A stretch of 12,957 nt of DNA from an uncultured Oscillospiraceae bacterium (GTDB lineage Bacteria; Bacillota; Clostridia; Oscillospirales; Oscillospiraceae). The stretch is from NCBI GenBank assembly GCA_934659475.1, contig CAKUHX010000033.1, forward strand, positions 1 to 12,957, in the 5' to 3' direction. The notes under the pieces are model-generated. The model did not search any database and was not told the origin of the DNA. It saw nothing but the letters and a program-made list of their open reading frames with translations. Below are positions 2,281 to 12,957 of the stretch, in pieces; position 1 is the first letter of the stretch; every line of letters begins with the position of its first letter. A program made the translations under genes and the position numbers.

Positions 2281-3141
2281 ATGACGTATGATCTGCTGGT
2301 GCTGGGCACAGGCCCGGCGGGACTGTCCGCCGCGGTGACGGCCCGGGGCCGCGGCAAGTCCGTGGCAGTGATGGGCGCGCCGCCGGAGGACAGTCCTCTG
2401 GCCCGGGCGCCTGAGATAGACAACTACCTGGGCCTTCCCGGGATGAGCGGAGGGGAGATGCTGGCCCGGTTCGAGGAGCACGCCCGCCGGGCCGGCGCGG
2501 AGTTCGTCCGGGGCCGCGTGGTCTCTCTGCTGACTTGGGAGAGTTCTGTTATGGCCACGGTGGGCAGTCAGGTGTATCAGGGCCGTGCTTTGATCCTGGC
2601 CCCCGGCGTGGTGCGGCAGAACAAGTATCCCGGGGAGGAGGCCCTTTTGGGCCGGGGGGTGAGCTACTGCGCCACCTGCGACGGGATGCTGTACCGGGGG
2701 AAGGCGGTAGTGGTGGCGGGCCGCAGCCCCGAGGCCCCGGCGGAGGCCAGCTACCTGCGCTCCATCGGCTGCAAGGTCACCTATGTGGCCCCGGTCCGGC
2801 CGGAGGGGCTGGACGAGGAGATCCCCTTTGTGCCGGGAAACAGGCTGACCGTGCTGGGAGAGGGCGCGGTCACCGGGGTGGAGACCGGCGGGCAGACGAT
2901 CCCCTGCGCGGGGGTATTCATCCTGCGTCCGGCGGTGGCCCCTGCGGATCTGCTGCCCGGCCTGGCCACGGAGAACGGCGTCATCCGGACCGACCGCTTT
3001 ATGGCCACCAATTTGCCGGGGGTCTTTGCGGCGGGGGACTGCACCGGACTGCCCCATCAGATCTCCAAGGCCGTGGGGGAGGGGCTGACCGCCGCTCTGA
3101 CCGCGTGTCGATATTTGGACGAGAAACAAAAGCGGGCCTGA
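2281..3141 (+). CDS. Thioredoxin-reductase-like flavoprotein lacking NADPH motifs
   Basis: 286 residues. The FAD-binding GTGPAG is at 9-14, the redox-active CATC at 130-133 and the C-terminal flavin motif AAGDCTG at 250-256, all in the order of bacterial TrxB. The NADPH domain is abnormal: the expected GGGDSAxEE-type loop reads AGRSPEAPAEASYL (146-159), and the HRRxxxRA motif that grips the NADPH 2'-phosphate is replaced by YVAPVRPEG (168-176). It is also about 20-30 residues shorter than typical TrxB. It therefore resembles ferredoxin-dependent flavin thioredoxin reductases and other deep-branching reductases that do not use NADPH, but the electron donor cannot be read from sequence. The ATG has AAGGAG 8 nt upstream. 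Thioredoxin follows 36 nt downstream in the same operon, its probable substrate. Confidence 0.88.
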   Translation: MTYDLLVLGTGPAGLSAAVTARGRGKSVAVMGAPPEDSPLARAPEIDNYLGLPGMSGGEMLARFEEHARRAGAEFVRGRVVSLLTWESSVMATVGSQVYQGRALILAPGVVRQNKYPGEEALLGRGVSYCATCDGMLYRGKAVVVAGRSPEAPAEASYLRSIGCKVTYVAPVRPEGLDEEIPFVPGNRLTVLGEGAVTGVETGGQTIPCAGVFILRPAVAPADLLPGLATENGVIRTDRFMATNLPGVFAAGDCTGLPHQISKAVGEGLTAALTACRYLDEKQKRA

Positions 3142-3177: not shown

Positions 3178-3486
3178 ATGCTGCACTTTTCAAAGGACGG
3201 ATTTGACAAGGCCCTGTCTCAGGGCAAGCTGATGATGGTGGACTTCTGGGCCGACTGGTGCGGCCCCTGCCGTATGCTGGGCCCGGTGATCGAGCAGTTG
3301 GCCGACCGGTACCCCGATGTGGTGGTGGGCAAGGTGAATGTGGACGACGAGCAGGAGCTGGCCCTGCGGTACGGCGTCATGTCCATCCCTACGGTGATCT
3401 TCTTCAAGGACGGCAAGGAGATCGACCGCAAGGTGGGCGTCATGCCCCCGGAGGCGTTCACCCAGGTGCTGGATGCCAATAAGTGA
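3178..3486 (+). CDS. trxA: Thioredoxin
   Basis: 102 residues, the usual size of a single-domain thioredoxin. The active site WCGPC is at residues 27-31, preceded by the typical VDFWADWC strand, and the cis-proline that faces it is P71 (MSIPT). It reduces protein disulfides in the cytoplasm and is recharged by the reductase encoded immediately upstream. A strong AGGAGG (3164-3169) lies 8 nt before the ATG. The pairing with a reductase lacking NADPH motifs suggests a thioredoxin system fed from ferredoxin rather than NADPH, which is inference. Confidence 0.97.
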   Translation: MLHFSKDGFDKALSQGKLMMVDFWADWCGPCRMLGPVIEQLADRYPDVVVGKVNVDDEQELALRYGVMSIPTVIFFKDGKEIDRKVGVMPPEAFTQVLDANK

Positions 3487-5912: not shown

Positions 5913-7637
5913 TCAGGCGGGCTGCTGGCCCTGTAGAATATCCACCGCTGCCCGGGCGGCTGCCGCCGCATCCTCGGTGTACACGTCGGCGCCGATCTCA
6001 TCGCAGAAGCTCTGGTCGATGGGTGCGCCGCCCACCATGATCTTCACCTTGTCCCGGATGCCCTCCTGCTTTGCCAGCTCCACCACCTGGCGCATGTTCT
6101 GCATGGTGGTGGTCAGCAGGGAAGAGCAGGCGATGATGCCACAGTTGTACTTTTTGGCGGTGTCTATGAACTGCTGCGGGCTGACATCGGTGCCCAGGTC
6201 GTGGACTTCGATGCCGCTGCCCTCCATCATGATCTTCACCAGGTTCTTGCCGATGTCGTGCATGTCCCCCTGGACGGTGCCCAGGCACACATGACCTACG
6301 ATCCGGGCGCTCTCGCCGGTCATATAGGGCTTGAGCAGGGCGGTGGCGGCGGTCATGCACCGGGCGGCAATGAGCATCTCCGGGACAAAGGCCCGGTTGG
6401 CGGAGAACTCCTCCCCCAGAACGGTCATGCCGTGGACCAGACCCTTGGATAGGATCTCCTGGGGGCCATAGCCCTCGTCCAGGGCCTGCTGGCACAGCTG
6501 GAGCACCCGCTTCTGCTGGCCGCGCAGCAGGGCGGAGGAAATGCGCGCCATCAGGTCACCGCTGCCCTCACTGACCTGGGCGGCCTGTGCCGCGGCGGGG
6601 GCGGCAGCCCGCTGCCGCCGGGGGATGGGGGGCAGCGGGGTGACGGGGAAGTGCAGTCCGGCGTTGTACTCGTCGATGGCCTGGTCCAGATACTGATCCA
6701 CATGGGGGAACACCGTGCCCGCCAGACCGTAGGTGATGGAGGGGATGTAGTGTCCGCCGGGGCAGTAGCGCTCCAGCGCCGACCGGGCATAGGCCAGGAT
6801 CTCATCGGGCTGGGCGTCCACCCGGTCGATGGCGGCCCCCAGGCCGCCCATGAGGACCAGCCTGCCCTTCAGATGCCGCTGGAGGGCAGGGATGTCGTTC
6901 TCTGGCAGCACGCCCTGCCACACCTGAATGCCGATCTCGGCCATGTCGTCCACGATGGGCGCCAGGTAAGAGTCGGCGTGGTGGATGGCGATGACCCCGC
7001 GGGAGCGGATATAGCCGTAGAACCGGCGGTAGGGCTCCTTGAAGAACTCCCGCCACATGTCGGGCTTCATGAACAGGGCGGCCTTGGTGCCCCAGTCATC
7101 GTGGCTGAAGATCACATCGGGCTGGAGCCCGTCGATCAGCCGCCTGACATAGTCTAGGCGGTACTGGGTGATATACTCGATCAGCTCATGCATCTCGTCG
7201 GGGTGTTCATACAGAGCGGTGAGCGTGCCCTCAAAGCCCATGAGGAAGTGGCACTGCTCGAAGATGCCCGTGCCCATAAAGCCGGCCAGCAGGTGGTCCT
7301 CGCCGCAGGCGGCCCGGGCGGCGGCGCGGCACTCCTCCCAGCCGTGGCCGCACTCATTCAGGTCGGGGGCGTGCACCGTCTCCCGCCAGCGGGTGACATC
7401 CTGACAGACGGTGAGCTCCTTGCTGTGAAGCGGAGTGGGACCGGGGGCGTCCTCCGGAAAGCTGATGGTGGTGCCCCAACGGTCGCGGCTGACGGTGCCC
7501 CGCCTGCGGTTGCCCCGGAGATAGGTGTTGATGGGGTCGGTCAGGCACATGGACAGGGCCTCGTACTGGCGCAGTTGGCGCTCGGGCTGTCCATCGGGCT
7601 TGAGCAGCTCCAGAAAAATTTCCTTCGGTGTGGACAT
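5913..7637 (-). CDS. Methyltransferase-corrinoid fusion protein (CmuA-like)
   Basis: 574 residues in two parts. Residues about 1-335 are a uroporphyrinogen-decarboxylase-fold domain of the MtaA/CmuA type, with the family stretches HHADSY (219-224), WQGVLPENDIP (240-250) and IPSITYGLAGTVFPH (298-312). A Pro/Ala/Gln linker (about 334-358) joins it to a helical cap (about 360-440) and a B12-binding domain carrying DMHDIG (458-463), whose H460 is the expected lower cobalt ligand, plus SSLL (505-508) and VGG (535-537). This order is that of the chloromethane methyltransferase CmuA. It should demethylate a small substrate and hold the methyl on its own corrinoid; the substrate is unknown. The usual zinc motif HxC reads H-H-A, so metal binding would differ. 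The ATG at 7637 is preferred over the one at 7646 because AAAGGA lies 9 nt before it. Confidence 0.87.
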   Translation of the reverse strand: MSTPKEIFLELLKPDGQPERQLRQYEALSMCLTDPINTYLRGNRRRGTVSRDRWGTTISFPEDAPGPTPLHSKELTVCQDVTRWRETVHAPDLNECGHGWEECRAAARAACGEDHLLAGFMGTGIFEQCHFLMGFEGTLTALYEHPDEMHELIEYITQYRLDYVRRLIDGLQPDVIFSHDDWGTKAALFMKPDMWREFFKEPYRRFYGYIRSRGVIAIHHADSYLAPIVDDMAEIGIQVWQGVLPENDIPALQRHLKGRLVLMGGLGAAIDRVDAQPDEILAYARSALERYCPGGHYIPSITYGLAGTVFPHVDQYLDQAIDEYNAGLHFPVTPLPPIPRRQRAAAPAAAQAAQVSEGSGDLMARISSALLRGQQKRVLQLCQQALDEGYGPQEILSKGLVHGMTVLGEEFSANRAFVPEMLIAARCMTAATALLKPYMTGESARIVGHVCLGTVQGDMHDIGKNLVKIMMEGSGIEVHDLGTDVSPQQFIDTAKKYNCGIIACSSLLTTTMQNMRQVVELAKQEGIRDKVKIMVGGAPIDQSFCDEIGADVYTEDAAAAARAAVDILQGQQPA

Positions 7638-7682
7638 AGCGGTCATTCCTTTGTGGCGTGATATGGAAGGGATATATACTTG

Positions 7683-8219
7683 TCAGTCCTTGTTGTACAA
7701 GACACAGGACGTATAAGTCAATGTGTTTTCTCCATAGTTGTAGCCAAGACCGGACAGGGTGCAGACGTTGCTGACGAACAGGCCGTATGCCTCCATGGAG
7801 GAGATGCGTTTCCCGGGAAAACGGCAGGGCCGGGCGGGGCAGGTACAGTGGGAGCAGACGGTGCAGGCCCCGGCGGAGAGGGGAAGGCAGTTGGGGCACA
7901 GCAGCCCCACCTGCCGGGCGAAGCTGGCAAATCGGCGGCGGTGGGCCCGGGCGGCGGCAGTCATCCCCTCATAGTCGAAGGGGTCGGACAGCTGGACGGT
8001 GCTCTGCACCAGAATGCCGCTGTCATAGGCGCGCAGCCGGGCGGTGCACTGCTCCAGACTGCCGCAGCCCGGGGGACAGGCCCAGTTTTTGCCCCACTGT
8101 CCGCAGCGGTCCGCTGCGCACATATCCCGGATCTGGGCCAGGGGGATCAGGGCGGACATGCACAGGTCTGCCCAGTGGGAAAAGCCGTTTTCCCGGGCAA
8201 GTGTCATAAGATCAAGCAC
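7683..8219 (-). CDS. DUF2284-type cysteine-rich metal-binding protein
   Basis: 178 residues with 15 cysteines. An N-terminal cluster reads CxxxxC...CPPGC (34, 39, 48, 52, 58) and a second dense cluster follows at 108-132 (CPNC, CTVCSHCTC, C). The pattern fits the DUF2284 family of predicted iron-sulfur/metal proteins, often found near corrinoid methyltransferases; the biochemical role is unknown. The frame continues to a TTG at 8240, but I chose the GTG at 8219 because AGAGGGGG lies 7 nt before it and the resulting N-terminus (LDLMTLARENGF) fits the family; an ATG at 8207 is also possible. It is the first gene of the minus-strand operon, 45 nt before the methyltransferase-corrinoid fusion, which points to a shared pathway. 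Confidence 0.78.
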   Translation of the reverse strand: MLDLMTLARENGFSHWADLCMSALIPLAQIRDMCAADRCGQWGKNWACPPGCGSLEQCTARLRAYDSGILVQSTVQLSDPFDYEGMTAAARAHRRRFASFARQVGLLCPNCLPLSAGACTVCSHCTCPARPCRFPGKRISSMEAYGLFVSNVCTLSGLGYNYGENTLTYTSCVLYNKD

Positions 8220-8233
8220 CGGTGCGCCCCCTC

Positions 8234-8263
8234 TTGACAAAATAAACTTTACCTGATTAAAAT
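8234..8263 (+). promoter_or_regulatory. Promoter of the RACo-like operon
   Basis: TTGACA (8234-8239), an 18-nt spacer and TAAAAT (8258-8263), the same arrangement as the rex promoter. Start near 8270, about 30 nt before the GTG at 8301. Confidence 0.65.
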
Positions 8264-8268
8264 GTTAA
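8241..8268 (-). promoter_or_regulatory. Weak promoter for the DUF2284/methyltransferase operon
   Basis: On the minus strand TTAACA (8263-8268) lies 16 nt before TTTATT (8241-8246). It occupies the same DNA as the plus-strand promoter, so polymerases for the two operons would compete. The match to consensus is modest. Confidence 0.35.
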
Positions 8269-8300
8269 GATGAGATCAATTATAGGGGGAGGCGGCGCCG

Positions 8301-9809
8301 GTGTCAAGCATTCGTGTACACCAGGGGACAAAGGACCTGGAGCTGCCCCTGAAGGCGGGAGAGACGCTGCTGGCCCTTCTGCGGGCCGGGGGCATATCCC
8401 TTCCCGCGGCCTGCGGGGGAAAGGGCCGGTGCGGCAAGTGCCGGGTGGAGTATAACGGCGCGCCCCGCCTTGCCTGCCGCGTGTTTCCTCAGGACGGCGA
8501 CCGGGTGGTCCTGCCGGAGCAGTCCGGTGGCCTGATCCTGACAGAGACCCGGGCCAGCCCGGTGTTTCAGGCTGGAGGGACAGGGTGCGCCGCGGCGGTA
8601 GACTTGGGCACGACCACTGTGGCTGTGCGTATCTATGACCTGGCCAAGGGGGAGGAGGTGGCCTCGGCCGCGGCATGGAACCTTCAGGCGCCCTACGGGG
8701 CCGATGTGATCAGCCGCATCCAGTATACGCTGGAGCGGGAGGAGGGCCTGAGGGAGCTCTCCCGGTGCATCCGGGAGCAGGTCATGCAGCAGATCCGGCG
8801 GGGGATGGAGGGCTGTGGCCGCCCCGTGGAGCAGGTGCAGAGGATCTTTCTGGCGGGCAACACGGCGATGCAGCTGCTGTTTGCCGGGCGGCCTGTCCGG
8901 GGCCTGGCATCCGCCCCCTTTCGTCCGGACACTCTGTTCCGGGAACAGCAGGGAGATCGGCTTTACAACATCCCAGTTTCTTACGCTCCATGCGTGTCCG
9001 GCTTCGTAGGGGGCGACATCACGGCCGGACTGCTGGCATCCGGCCTGGGGCAGAGGAGGGGGAACTTCCTCTTTCTGGACATCGGGACCAACGGTGAGAT
9101 GGCCCTGGGCGGCGCGGACGGATACCTGTGCTGCTCCGTGGCCTCCGGCCCCGCCTTTGAGGGGGGCGGGATCTCCTGCGGCATGCCGGGGATGGACGGA
9201 GCGGTCAGCCATGTGCGGTATGACCGCGGCTTTCTGTACGATGTGATCGGTGGCGGCCCAGCCAAGGGGCTGTGCGGTTCCGGCCTGCTGGACCTGGCGG
9301 CGGGGCTGCTGCGGCTGGGCCTTCTGGACGAGAGCGGCCGGCTCCTGCCGCCGGAGGAGGCCCCGGCAGAACTGGGCCGGTATCTTGTGCGGGATGGGGA
9401 CGGGAACGGCCTGTTCCGTTTGACGGCGGACGTTGTTTTGACTGCCGGAGACGTCCGGAGCCTTCAGCTGGCCAAGGCCGCCGTGGCGGCGGGCATCCGG
9501 GTGCTGCTGGAGCAGAGGGGGCTGACGGCGGAGAAGCTGGACGGCATCTATCTGGCGGGGGGCTTCGGCTCCTACCTGTCTCCGGACAGCGCCGCCGCCA
9601 TCGGGATGCTGCCGGCGATCCCCCGGGACAGGCTGCACAGCCTGGGAAATACGGCTCTGGCTGGGGCGGCTATAGCGGCGGCGGACCCGGAGATGGAGCG
9701 CCAAATGGCCGCCGTGGCCAACGGCTGCCGGTATGTTGAACTGGCGGGCAGAGGAGACTTTGCCGCAGCCTTTGTGGAATGTATGCGATTTGGATCGGGA
9801 GGGTCATGA
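8301..9809 (+). CDS. RACo-like ATP-dependent corrinoid reductive activator
   Basis: 502 residues. An N-terminal [2Fe-2S] ferredoxin domain (about 1-75) has cysteines 38, 44, 47 and 59 (CX5CX2CX11C). A DUF4445/ASKHA ATPase-like domain follows, with DLGTTTVAVRIYD (101-113), FLAGNTAMQLLF (183-194), FLDIGTNGEMALGG (258-271) and LAGGFGSYL (418-426). Proteins of this kind use ATP to push an electron into an inactive Co(II) corrinoid protein, returning it to Co(I). The ferredoxin domain runs nearly directly into the ATPase domain, so it is shorter than RACo of the acetyl-CoA pathway, which carries a separate linker domain. The N-terminal [2Fe-2S] cluster also separates it from RamA, whose clusters are C-terminal. 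The GTG start is supported by GGGGGAGG 8 nt upstream. Its likely client is the corrinoid fusion protein encoded divergently. Confidence 0.88.
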   Translation: MSSIRVHQGTKDLELPLKAGETLLALLRAGGISLPAACGGKGRCGKCRVEYNGAPRLACRVFPQDGDRVVLPEQSGGLILTETRASPVFQAGGTGCAAAVDLGTTTVAVRIYDLAKGEEVASAAAWNLQAPYGADVISRIQYTLEREEGLRELSRCIREQVMQQIRRGMEGCGRPVEQVQRIFLAGNTAMQLLFAGRPVRGLASAPFRPDTLFREQQGDRLYNIPVSYAPCVSGFVGGDITAGLLASGLGQRRGNFLFLDIGTNGEMALGGADGYLCCSVASGPAFEGGGISCGMPGMDGAVSHVRYDRGFLYDVIGGGPAKGLCGSGLLDLAAGLLRLGLLDESGRLLPPEEAPAELGRYLVRDGDGNGLFRLTADVVLTAGDVRSLQLAKAAVAAGIRVLLEQRGLTAEKLDGIYLAGGFGSYLSPDSAAAIGMLPAIPRDRLHSLGNTALAGAAIAAADPEMERQMAAVANGCRYVELAGRGDFAAAFVECMRFGSGGS

Positions 9810-9810
9810 T

Positions 9811-11028
9811 ATGGAAGTCCGTTTTCCCCTTATTTTAGACGGCGCTACCGGCACGGAGCTGCAAAAACGCGGCTATCAGGGCGATGTCAGTGCGGAGCAG
9901 TGGGTGCTGGAGCACCCGGAGGTCATTGTGGAGCTCCAGCGCGGCTATGTGGACGCGGGCAGCCAGGTGGTCTACGCCCCCACCTTTGGGGCCAACCGGC
10001 AAAAGCTGGAGGAGCACCGCATCTTCAACCGGGTGGAGGACTACAACGTCCGGCTGACGGCCCTGTCCAGACAGGCGGCGGCGGGCCGGGCATGGGTGGC
10101 CGGAGATCTCTCCCCCACGGGGCAGTTCCTGGCCCCTCTGGGCGGGGCGTCCTTTGAAGAACTCGTGGACATCTACACCGAGCAGGCCGCCGCTTTGGAG
10201 AAGGCAGGAGTGGACCTATTCGTTGTGGAGACCATGATGACCCTGTCGGACGCCCGGGCGGCGGTGCTGGCTATCCGCAGTGTCAGCAGCAAACCGACCT
10301 TGGTGTCCTTCACCTGTGATGAAAACGGGCGGACCCTGTCCGGCACCGATGTGGCCGCCGCCCTGGTGGTGCTGCAGGGCATGGGGGTCAGCGCCTTCGG
10401 CCTGAACTGCTCCACCGGGCCGGACAAGATGCTGGCTCAGCTGCGCCGCCTGCGGAAGTATGCACGGATCCCCCTGATGGCCAAGCCCAACGCGGGCATG
10501 CCCAAGGTGATGGGGGACAAGACGGTGTACGACTGCCCGCCGGAGGGATTCGCGGCTTATGCGGACGAGATGGTGCAGGCGGGCGTGGGCGTGTTCGGTG
10601 GCTGCTGTGGCACCGACAGCCGGTATATCGCCGCCCTGAAGGAGGCTTTGGACGGAAAACGGTTCGTTCCCCCTGCGCCGGAGCACACCGAACTGCTGCC
10701 CGCGGCCACGGAGAAGCTGCCCTTCCTGCTGCCGGTGGATGCGGGCCACGGCCCGGCGCTGTCCGCCGGAGAGGACATGGAAGAGGCCATCGAGCAGGCG
10801 CTGGAGGGCGGCGAGCCCACGCTGGCTATGCATATCGGCACCTGGGAGGATGTAGACGAACTGGCCGACTGGCAGTACGCCATGACAAAGCCCTTGTGCC
10901 TGATCTGCGAGGACGGAGCGCTGTTGGAGGCCGCCCTGCGGGTCTATCAGGGCCGCGCCCTGTACGAGGGCAGCCTGCCAGAGGAGACGCTGCTGCCCCT
11001 GAGCCGCCGCTATGGCCTTTTGATCTGA
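9811..11028 (+). CDS. Homocysteine S-methyltransferase (truncated MetH-like)
   Basis: 405 residues. Residues 1-285 are a homocysteine methyltransferase barrel: LILDGATGTELQKRGY at 7-22 and the three zinc cysteines C200 (GLNC) and C265/C266 (GGCCGT), which bind homocysteine thiolate. Residues about 306-405 resemble the first half of the pterin-binding domain that follows in full MetH (EEAIEQALEGG, AALRVYQGRAL, LLPLSRRYG), then the protein stops; the rest of the pterin domain and the B12 domains are absent. It would therefore need a methyl donor from another protein, or use a small donor such as S-methylmethionine or a betaine. I start at ATG 9811: GGGAGGG lies 7 nt upstream and the RACo-like gene stops 1 nt before. 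The frame itself is open from 9733, inside that gene. Confidence 0.87.
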   Translation: MEVRFPLILDGATGTELQKRGYQGDVSAEQWVLEHPEVIVELQRGYVDAGSQVVYAPTFGANRQKLEEHRIFNRVEDYNVRLTALSRQAAAGRAWVAGDLSPTGQFLAPLGGASFEELVDIYTEQAAALEKAGVDLFVVETMMTLSDARAAVLAIRSVSSKPTLVSFTCDENGRTLSGTDVAAALVVLQGMGVSAFGLNCSTGPDKMLAQLRRLRKYARIPLMAKPNAGMPKVMGDKTVYDCPPEGFAAYADEMVQAGVGVFGGCCGTDSRYIAALKEALDGKRFVPPAPEHTELLPAATEKLPFLLPVDAGHGPALSAGEDMEEAIEQALEGGEPTLAMHIGTWEDVDELADWQYAMTKPLCLICEDGALLEAALRVYQGRALYEGSLPEETLLPLSRRYGLLI

Positions 11029-11064: not shown

Positions 11065-12015
11065 ATGAGCGAGACACGACCCGGCGTAAAGCTGAACAAG
11101 ATCATAGAGGAGTTCCGGCTGGAGGTGCTCAACGCCGGAGAAAACTATGAAAAGACCGTGGTGACCAAGCCGGATGTGAACCGGCCCGGCCTGCCCCTGA
11201 CCGGCTTCTTCGAGCGGTTCGACACCAGACGGCTCATGGTCATCGGCATCACGGAGTGGCTCTATCTGGACGGCCTGACGCCGGAGGTGCGGGGCGAGCG
11301 GTGCGACCGCCTGATGTCCTATCCGGCCCCGGCACTGATCATCACCCGGGGGCTGGAGCCCCACCCGGAGTGTATGGAGGCCGCCCGGAAATATGGCCGC
11401 ACCATCCTGCGCACCAAGGCCCAGACCTCGGCCTTTATGAGTCTGCTCATCGGCAGCCTGTATAACGACATGGCCCCGTGCATCACCCGCTCCGGCGTGA
11501 TGATGGAGGTGTACGGCGAGGGGGTGCTGATCCAGGGGGAGTCCGGTGTGGGCAAGAGCGAGGTGGCCATCGAGCTGATCAAGCGCGGCCACCGCATCAT
11601 CGCCGACGACGCCCTGGAGATCCGTGAGACCAACCACGGCACCCTGATGGCCACGGCCCCGGAGCTGATCCGCCACTACATGGAACTGCGGGGCATCGGC
11701 GTGATCGATGTGCGCCGCCTGTTCGGCATGGGGGCCATCAAGGATGAGCAGCAGATCGATATGGTGATCCGGCTGGAGCCCTGGGACGACCACGCGGTGT
11801 ACGACCGCCTGGGACTGGAGGGCTGTACCACGGAGATCCTGGGTGTGGAGCTGCCCCTTGTGACCATCCCGGTAAAGCCGGGGCGGAACCTGGCCAGTAT
11901 CCTGGAGGTGGCCGCCATGAACAACCGCAACCGGAAGATGGGACACAATGCGGCACTGGAACTGACCGAGAGGATGGACAAACTCTTCCCGGCAAAAGAA
12001 GGAGAGAGATCGTGA
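11065..12015 (+). CDS. hprK: HPr kinase/phosphorylase
   Basis: 316 residues, the normal size. The enzyme phosphorylates and dephosphorylates Ser46 of HPr and so controls carbon catabolite repression in Gram-positive bacteria. The N-terminal domain has VTKPDVNRPGLPLTGFF (33-49). The kinase domain carries the P-loop GESGVGKS (158-165), KRGHRIIADD (173-182) with both catalytic aspartates, the signature ELRGIGVIDVRRLFG (207-221) and VKPGRN (270-275). One oddity: the position 15 residues before the P-loop, which is a catalytic histidine in well-studied members (H140 of Lactobacillus casei HprK), is serine here (S143, in TRSGVMMEVYG). Ribosome site AAGAGG is 8 nt before the ATG. It lies only 36 nt after the homocysteine methyltransferase and overlaps the next gene by 1 nt, so it appears co-transcribed with both. 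Confidence 0.95.
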   Translation: MSETRPGVKLNKIIEEFRLEVLNAGENYEKTVVTKPDVNRPGLPLTGFFERFDTRRLMVIGITEWLYLDGLTPEVRGERCDRLMSYPAPALIITRGLEPHPECMEAARKYGRTILRTKAQTSAFMSLLIGSLYNDMAPCITRSGVMMEVYGEGVLIQGESGVGKSEVAIELIKRGHRIIADDALEIRETNHGTLMATAPELIRHYMELRGIGVIDVRRLFGMGAIKDEQQIDMVIRLEPWDDHAVYDRLGLEGCTTEILGVELPLVTIPVKPGRNLASILEVAAMNNRNRKMGHNAALELTERMDKLFPAKEGERS

Positions 12016-12957
12016 TGTATCTGGGCATTGATGTTGGCGGCACCAATCTGGCGGCCGGGCTGACAGACGGAGAGGGACAGATCCTGTGCAAGGCTTCTGT
12101 CCCCGTAGACAGGGCGTGGACTGACCGGGAGATCGCCGGGGCGCTGGCACGGCTGTGCCGCATGACCGTGGAAAAGGGCGGCGTGCCGATGGAGAAGATC
12201 CAGGCGGTGGGTATGGGCGTGCCGGGCCAGGTGGACGATAAAAACGGCGTGGTCGTACACAGTCCCAACATGAATTTCAGCGATACGCCCCTCAGGCAGC
12301 TGGTGGAGCAGCAGGTGGGCATCCCGGTCTATCTGGGCAACGACGCCAACTGCGCGGCCATCGGCGAATACTGGGCCGGGGCGGCCAGAGGCTGCGACCC
12401 TGCGGTGGTCATCACCCTTGGCACCGGGATCGGCGGCGGCATGGTGGCCGGCGGAAAGCTGTACACCGGCTGCGCCGGCGGCGGCATGGAGGTGGGCCAC
12501 ATGATCACCCGTCCCGGCGGACGCAGATGCGGCTGCGGCAACCGGGGCTGCTGGGAGACCTACGGCTCCGCCACCGGACTGATCCGCTCCACCCGCGAGG
12601 CCATGGAGGAGCATCCGGACAGCGCCCTTTGGCGGCTGTGCGGCGGCGACGAGAGCCGGGTGGAGGGCCGGACCCCGTTTCAGGCTGCGCTGGACGGAGA
12701 CGAGACCGCCCTTCAGGTGGTGCGGGAGTACGTTCAGGCACTGGCAGAGGGGCTGATCAACGTGGTGAACCTGACCCAGCCGGAGATCATCTGCCTGGGC
12801 GGCGGCGTGAGTGCCGCGCCTGAGCACCTGCTGCTGGAGCCCCTGCGCAGGCTGGTGGAGCAGGGGGCCTTTGATAAGCTCCACGCCCCGCGCATCGTCC
12901 GGGCTGCGCTGGGCAACGATGCCGGTATCGTGGGCGCCGCCATGCTGTGCCGGATGG
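12015..12957 (+). CDS. ROK-family sugar kinase (glucokinase-like), 3' end missing
   Basis: 314 codons are visible and the frame runs off the right edge, probably very near its natural end. The ATP-phosphate motif GIDVGGTN is at residues 4-11, the catalytic aspartate in LGNDAN is near residue 112, LGTGIGGG follows, and the ROK zinc site CGCGNRGCWE lies in the second domain. The second phosphate region LGGGVS is near the C-terminus. ROK kinases phosphorylate glucose or related sugars in the cytoplasm; glucokinase is the likeliest activity, with N-acetylhexosamine or fructose kinase as alternatives. The ATG overlaps the hprK stop (TGATG), with GGAGAG 8 nt upstream, so the two are translationally coupled. 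Pairing with hprK fits a role in sugar uptake control. Confidence 0.92.
   Translation, partial: MYLGIDVGGTNLAAGLTDGEGQILCKASVPVDRAWTDREIAGALARLCRMTVEKGGVPMEKIQAVGMGVPGQVDDKNGVVVHSPNMNFSDTPLRQLVEQQVGIPVYLGNDANCAAIGEYWAGAARGCDPAVVITLGTGIGGGMVAGGKLYTGCAGGGMEVGHMITRPGGRRCGCGNRGCWETYGSATGLIRSTREAMEEHPDSALWRLCGGDESRVEGRTPFQAALDGDETALQVVREYVQALAEGLINVVNLTQPEIICLGGGVSAAPEHLLLEPLRRLVEQGAFDKLHAPRIVRAALGNDAGIVGAAMLCRM

Follow-up and report, generated by a model that had tools for sequence, protein, structure and literature searches.

A candidate folate-independent, B12-dependent methionine synthase built from separate parts in Oscillospiraceae and their relatives

Where does the methyl group of methionine come from in bacteria that seem to have given up the usual donor? 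Most organisms make methionine from methyl-folate. The question is raised by a four-gene locus in a 12,957 nucleotide stretch of DNA from an uncultured Oscillospiraceae bacterium (assembly GCA_934659475.1, contig CAKUHX010000033.1), referred to below, at its full length, as the window. The locus encodes a fusion of a UroD-type barrel with a corrinoid module (P1), a DUF2284 protein (P2), an activase resembling RACo (P3) and a homocysteine S-methyltransferase (P4). An initial annotation of the window had described such a four-gene locus at 5913-11028, and all four genes were found there with the domains it had named. We conclude that the locus probably encodes a B12-dependent methionine synthase that works without folate and is put together from separate proteins, with the UroD barrel replacing the folate module. 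Specifically, the cobalt of P1 would receive and carry a methyl group from a non-folate donor; P4, holding zinc-activated homocysteine, would accept it from methyl-Co(III) to give methionine; P3, with ATP, would bring P1 back to Co(I) after oxidation to Co(II); and P2 would act as an iron-sulfur helper.

The loss of folate chemistry can be followed within P4. Its sole Pfam match at E ≤ 0.001 is S-methyl_trans (PF02574, 243 bits), with no pterin, B12 or Met_synt_B12 match at that threshold; a homocysteine methyltransferase without B12 domains had been proposed here, and to that description we can add a folate-derived tail. P4 matches MetH of T. maritima (1q7m) over 7-395 with E = 4.4e-60, in an alignment that runs past the homocysteine barrel, to residue 420. 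The C-terminal ~100 residues of P4 (about 290-405) correspond to the first half of the folate barrel of MetH, of which they are a relic. For comparison, 67 P4 proteins were aligned with 15 MetH proteins from related genomes (a sixteenth, from L121, was dropped for its wrong frame). Against the folate-domain profile of the 15 MetH the P4 tail gives an hhalign probability of 94.9 (E = 4.1e-8, 54 columns), and against corrinoid, UroD and RACo control profiles a probability below 1%.

The two halves of P4 have fared very differently. On the homocysteine side, 35 of the 53 columns invariant in MetH are kept in ≥90% of P4 and 14 in <10%, and the cysteines C200, C265 and C266 of the zinc site are kept in 67/67. 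On the folate side only 6 of 63 such columns are kept in ≥90% and 48 in <10%. The R, N and P of GERINPTG, the D and N of DxN and the D of LDS occur in 0/67, and the N of NSxN in 1/67; the first G and the E of GERINPTG remain in 40/67 and 26/67, and the chain stops well short of the later folate-barrel motifs. From MetH structures we take these motifs to form the folate site, and the three cysteines to be the zinc ligands. By its sequence, then, P4 resembles a MetH in which the folate barrel decayed in place and no longer offers a folate site. On account of this tail we reject the reading of P4 as a plain short homocysteine methyltransferase. Two further cysteines within the relic, 363 and 366 (window 10897-10908), are kept in 65/67 and 56/67 P4; the 15 MetH have Q/M and S/T there. 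The open frame of P4 extends back to 9733, and its relatives start at the position equivalent to 9811.

What stands in place of the folate module is seen in P1. Residues 1-333 are a UroD/MtaA-type TIM barrel and residues 364-572 a corrinoid-binding module with DxHxxG at 461-466; the corrinoid cap and Rossmann modules are present, as in MetH. The structural model of P1 matches both folds and places the barrel ahead of the corrinoid module, the position that the folate barrel holds in MetH (a first AlphaFold2 model from 14 close relatives, with a predicted local distance difference test score of 64.7, was left out of the fold comparison). With a UroD barrel and its cognate corrinoid module in one chain, P1 fits a UroD-fold corrinoid methyltransferase system in the wide sense; CdmB was not among the matches listed in the VIA-align fold comparison, which has no bearing on membership. 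No Pterin_bind or PF02965 (S-adenosylmethionine (AdoMet) reactivation domain) match was found in P1-P4, and none to PF01717 (the MetE C-terminal catalytic domain) in P1 or P4. One protein cluster of P1 holds 5268 member sequences.

The order of domains in P1 is also what one would expect of a rebuilt MetH whose UroD barrel now binds methyl-folate, the donor being 5-methyl-tetrahydrofolate from an unknown reductase or from outside the cell. In its favour, MetE belongs to the UroD superfamily (PMC10418091) and uses methyl-folate (PMC7857596). We nevertheless consider it unlikely, given that P4 lost its own folate site, that MTHFR is missing in 67/75 genomes with the locus, and that the examples of free-standing close kin described below have solute transporters and PucR-type regulators as neighbours, as would suit the use of imported compounds.

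The best-scoring methyltransferase barrel in the fold comparison of P1 is an MtaA-type protein. The His-x-Cys of MtaA, presumably its thiol-activating zinc site, aligns with His223-x-Asp225 of P1, so such a site is probably absent from P1. The match to the MtaA/CmuA model TIGR01463 (25.3 bits) is below its NCBIfam cut-off of 235.4, and the 17-19% identity of the P1 barrel to the solved MtaA-type protein is below the 25% rule of PMC10418091. MtaA-type barrels methylate a thiol from methyl-cobalt (PMC10418091), and this opens the possibility of reverse flow, in which the methyl group of methionine would pass via P4 to cobalt and from there, through the MtaA-like barrel, to another thiol or acceptor, so that the locus would demethylate methionine. 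The top rank of the MtaA-type protein favours this idea, but the zinc site it would need is the one that appears to be missing, and no acceptor enzyme is linked in the loci. In addition, methyl transfer from methyl-cobalt to homocysteine is strongly downhill. Overall we regard reverse flow as somewhat less likely still than a rebuilt MetH, and return to it with the supply of homocysteine.

If the four proteins work together their genes should be found together. An alignment of 14 P1 proteins, used to scan the species genomes of GTDB, gave 108 related stretches; the best 80 were kept, and come from Oscillospiraceae, Oscillibacter, Mogibacterium, Baileyella, Eubacterium pyruvativorans and others. 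Neighbourhoods were counted in the 54 of these 80 loci with ≥5 kb upstream and 2.5 kb downstream (26 were left out for short flanks); 51 have the fusion and three, L076-L078, do not. Within 6 kb of P1, P4 is found in 51/51 fusion loci, P2 in 48/51 and P3 in 29/51. The layout is that of the window in 28 loci, lacks P3 nearby in 11, has P4 downstream on the same strand in eight, and falls into three rarer arrangements in the remaining four. With simple open-reading-frame picking, only four protein clusters, those of P1 to P4, passed 15/80 loci; the next largest, an ABC ATPase, reached 15/80. Mere synteny is rejected, since flanking genes vary between loci, and the grouping of the four genes is functional. 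P2, P3 and P4 are not near the free-standing UroD genes of L076-L078, whose flanks are adequate. Among loci with short flanks, nine are without P4 (L011, L018, L019, L024, L050, L051, L060, L074 and L079, all at contig ends or short), of which L060, with 1.5 kb upstream and 3.3 kb downstream, has no partner gene at all; L080 has neither P4 nor the fusion.

This linkage bears on a third alternative, that P1 is a catabolic demethylase which merely sits beside an unrelated homocysteine methyltransferase, its methyl group going elsewhere. Free UroD kin do occur beside transporters and regulators (see the examples below), and those of L076-L078 are not near P4. For the fusion, however, P1 and P4 are together in 51/51 loci, in several layouts and among differing genes, no transporter is conserved at most fusion loci, and in 67/75 carriers no MTHFR or MetH-size pterin protein was found that could receive the methyl group. 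We find a catabolic demethylase very improbable, more so than either of the alternatives above.

If the locus makes methionine without folate, its carriers could do without the folate-dependent enzymes. The search covered 75 genomes carrying P1-type loci, divided into a set of 30 and one of 45 (L076-L078 and L080, which have no fusion, and L079, from the same assembly as L024, were left out). Neither a MetH-size pterin protein nor MTHFR was found in 67/75. The same eight genomes have both: MetH-size pterin frames (775-908 residues) occur in 4/30 and 4/45, and MTHFR in 4/30 and 4/45. Pterin-domain matches over the cut-off occur in 11/75 genomes, in 8 of MetH size; short pterin frames of 265-303 residues are found in G003 (beside its MetH), G009, G026 and G267, while the one match in G241 falls short of the cut-off. 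The MetE catalytic domain (PF01717), for which the initial annotation had proposed a search, was found in 0/30 of these relatives. In 14 control genomes the pterin domain was detected in 13, MTHFR in 11 and the MetE domain in 10.

By contrast with these losses, PF02574 is present in 30/30 carriers, as a single match in 24/30, and the RACo C-terminal domain in 30/30, once in 27, against 1/14 control genomes. From these family counts, P4 is the only methionine synthase candidate and the RACo protein the only activase found in most carriers. The profile without MetH is shared by two isolates, Oscillibacter sp. ER4 (L075, G006) and Baileyella intestinalis (L054, G005), the latter with a second PF02574 protein of 356 residues and a second RACo match. 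Two proposals of the initial annotation gain from this. A folate-independent route with homocysteine as the methyl acceptor is supported by the absence of MTHFR from 67/75 genomes and of MetE from all 30 searched, and by the decayed folate barrel of P4; that all four roles, including the activase, are present agrees with the 51/51 linkage of P1 and P4 and the RACo domain in 30/30. That P3 serves a hidden MetH is rejected, no MetH having been found in 67/75 carriers: with a MetH-size protein in only 8/75, the RACo protein cannot activate MetH in the other 67, unless MetH was missed.

Several findings weigh against reading the locus as a folate-independent methionine synthase. In 22 of the 51 fusion loci no P3 lies within 6 kb, and in the relatives L093-L096 (G094, G086, G060 and G108) P4-type proteins carrying the relic tail are found where there is no fusion. 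Since each of these four genomes also encodes a free-standing corrinoid protein at another place, the parts can exist as separate genes; no clear partner was seen among the neighbours of free corrinoid proteins or of P4-type proteins outside fusion loci. MetH and MTHFR are present beside the locus in 8/75 genomes, including Mogibacterium kristiansenii (G003) and Eubacterium pyruvativorans (G004), and the locus is thus not the sole route there. The initial annotation had named independent gene pairs and an intact MetH elsewhere as what would speak against it. On the first, P1 and P4 hold together in 51/51 loci, and P3 (22/51) and the P4 of L093-L096 show some independence; on the second, tested in relatives, no MetH-size pterin protein was found in 67/75, and one is present in 8/75. 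The proposed route thus withstands most of these checks. In a family sample, comprising 200 genomes of the one family to which G006 belongs, a MetH-size PF02574 frame occurs in 3/7 fusion genomes. Whole-chain alignments of P1 with MetH give a root-mean-square deviation near 20, so a shared orientation of the domains is unsupported. Note also that the genome-wide tests cover the genomes of relatives, not the window's own, and that many carrier genomes are metagenome-assembled, without completeness figures. Finally, none of MetA, LuxS and strong PF01053 matches was found in 12/30 carriers (SahH and MetX were not searched), and the methyl donor cannot be read from sequence, as had been foreseen from the outset.

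The supply of homocysteine deserves a closer look. Among the 30 carriers HTS (MetA) was found in 9, LuxS in 6 and PF01053 at E ≤ 1e-50 in 17. The 12 carriers without any of these disfavour de novo methionine synthesis and favour either recycling or reverse flow, where homocysteine may be the product and not the substrate. If the locus is a methionine synthase, it more likely works in homocysteine recycling than in de novo synthesis. As for the donor, clustering of the 80 loci revealed no widely conserved transporter at the fusion loci, which suggests that the donor is internal or freely diffusing.

The relatives of the P1 barrel may give a further hint. In the family sample the full fusion is found in at least 7/200 genomes; G057 and G150 have weaker matches over both halves of the fusion, with stops between. 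Free-standing UroD relatives of about 35-59% identity make up most of the matches listed. Some, 43-59% identical, lie beside MFS_2/GPH-type symporters (whose scores against the GPH model are below its cut-off), PucR-type regulators or a Bmp ABC transporter, a setting that would fit enzymes for imported compounds; others lie beside an SSF or CitMHS transporter, or nothing telling. These neighbours are examples and not a survey, and open-reading-frame picking in these GC-rich stretches seems often to have taken the antisense frame. Two of them offer a possible hint at substrates: L076 (8250-13513), where a free UroD relative 56% identical to the P1 barrel is beside an MFS_2 symporter and a PucR-type regulator, and L080 (2278-9642), where one 43% identical lies inside a Bmp/PnrA-like ABC transporter operon. 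The UroD-type expansion is largest in G138, with up to 36 first-look candidates among the matches listed; its homocysteine methyltransferase match, again among those listed, is only a short one (303 residues).

P3 has the make-up of an activase. Its middle and C-terminal ASKHA domains, Raco_middle (PF17651) and RACo_C_ter (PF14574), score 131 and 226 bits, its iron-sulfur domain Fer2 (PF00111) scores 33 bits, and it aligns with PDB 3zyy across residues 97-493 (E = 1.6e-72). The N-terminal [2Fe-2S] cysteines C38, C44, C47 and C59 are kept in 39/39 aligned proteins. P3 is shorter than RACo, and the linker region was not seen in it; its 312 bits against the AcsV model NF040756 are below the cut-off of 800 (502 residues, against 632 in the model). 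In four genomes without P3 in the locus (G021, G023, G024 and G027) a RACo gene lies ~36 kb from P4 on the same contig. P2 (DUF2284, 144.8 bits) has seven cysteines and one histidine invariant in 69/69 aligned proteins, and on account of its cysteines is likely an iron-sulfur or metal protein; that it carries electrons to the activase is a guess. No solved structure resembles it by sequence (best E 0.69). Its start codon is uncertain (TTG at 8240, GTG near 8219 or ATG near 8207), and comparison with a relative suggests that it may be the GTG.

How does the locus compare with known systems? With MetH (T. maritima 1q7m, T. thermophilus 8ssc) it shares the homocysteine barrel with three zinc cysteines and the corrinoid cap and Rossmann modules, but the parts are on separate chains, the folate barrel is only a relic in P4 with the UroD barrel of P1 in its stead, and the PF02965 activation domain of MetH is not in P1-P4. 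Some MetH also lack PF02965 (PMC5764234). The three-part methionine synthase of Phaeobacter inhibens likewise has separate homocysteine and corrinoid proteins and a DUF4445 activator, a ferredoxin-DUF4445 protein that serves B12 reactivation (PMC5764234); it has a folate-binding part, however, and none was found in 67/75 carriers. MtgBCDE of Ruegeria pomeroyi couples glycine betaine demethylation to methionine synthesis through a corrinoid protein between demethylase and homocysteine methyltransferase (PMC12478193). It differs in that MtgB is of pfam06253 and P1 of PF01208, in its pterin protein MtgD, in having demethylase and corrinoid protein as separate genes, and in that mtgE is often not near mtgBCD (PMC12478193).

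The core methionine synthases MesA-MesD also make methionine without folate, and MesA and MesB probably accept the methyl group from corrinoid proteins (PMC7857596). They are homologous to the MetE catalytic domain, whereas P4 is an S-methyl_trans protein with a MetH-derived tail. The chloromethane systems CmuA and CdmBC have a UroD-fold MTI and a corrinoid protein, in CmuA on one chain as in P1, and Cdm an ATP-dependent activating enzyme, but Cdm passes the methyl group to tetrahydrofolate via CdmA (PMC13222342). Type I mlp gene clusters combine UroD-superfamily methyltransferases with a corrinoid protein, an activase and a proposed link to methionine salvage, and tie these methyltransferases to methyl-sulfur or methyl-selenium recycling; the portion of that account available to us names no homocysteine methyltransferase of the P4 kind (PMC10418091). 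A literature search, with subscription journals mostly and preprints wholly outside its scope, returned no account joining homocysteine S-methyltransferase, corrinoid protein and uroporphyrinogen.

The folate-independent synthases gathered in PMC7857596 belong to the MetE-core kind. In this locus it appears to be the B12 branch that was rewired to a non-folate donor, in gut and rumen bacteria, apparently by keeping MetH chemistry and replacing the folate module. A wider proposal, for and against which we see the balance as even, is that many Oscillospiraceae and gut and rumen relatives dropped MetH, MetE and methyl-folate formation altogether, that one UroD-corrinoid fusion feeds their methionine cycle from a single widely available donor, and that P4 is their former MetH with its folate barrel decayed in place. 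If true, this would account for carriers like Oscillibacter sp. ER4 in which no MetH, MetE or MTHFR was found, and would alter predictions of methionine and folate cross-feeding; a survey of gut bacteria has listed 25 genomes with the upstream methionine pathway and neither MetH nor MetE (PMC9026213). The identity of the donor then becomes a question that can be answered with four purified proteins.

Features of the locus in the window, with positions in nucleotides.
Feature	Position	Strand	Description
P1	5913-7646	-	UroD-type barrel + corrinoid fusion; URO-D, B12-binding_2 and B12-binding matches
P2	7683-8240	-	DUF2284 protein
P3	8301-9809	+	[2Fe-2S] RACo-like activase; Fer2, Raco_middle and RACo_C_ter matches
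P4	9811-11028	+	Homocysteine S-methyltransferase; S-methyl_trans match
Predicted promoter-like site for P3-P4	8234-8263	+	TTGACA-18-TAAAAT, 11/12 consensus match
Predicted promoter-like site for P2-P1	8279-8307	-	TTGACA-17-TATAAT, 12/12 consensus match; overlaps P3 start

The single divergent promoter region proposed for the locus is matched by a consensus scan, in which two near-consensus sigma-70-type sites face outwards over the 60-base gap between P2 and P3, each extending into the start of the oppositely read gene. Over 5.5 kb the scan counted three promoter-like sites, where shuffled sequence gave 0.6 on average. The window has no tRNA and no Rfam family at the gathering threshold, and no riboswitch was found with Rfam upstream of either operon in seven related loci. 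The relative L001 has a purine riboswitch (RF00167, 44.8 bits) at 11918-12023 (+), just downstream of P1 and not upstream of the operon, and a skipping-rope RNA (RF02924) at 6562-6647 (-), directly after the stop of its P4 relative on the same strand.

The locus is preceded in the window by genes for GlnS, a TrxB-like flavoprotein, thioredoxin, Rex and an SLH protein, and followed by HprK and, from inspection by eye alone, the beginning of a frame resembling sugar kinases. The TrxB-like protein (2281-3141, 286 residues) adjoins the thioredoxin (3178-3486), and scores 173 bits against a cut-off of 343 for the thioredoxin reductase model, in a match split in two pieces. By this score it may be a non-NADPH thioredoxin reductase, a group that we take to include ferredoxin- and flavin-type enzymes.

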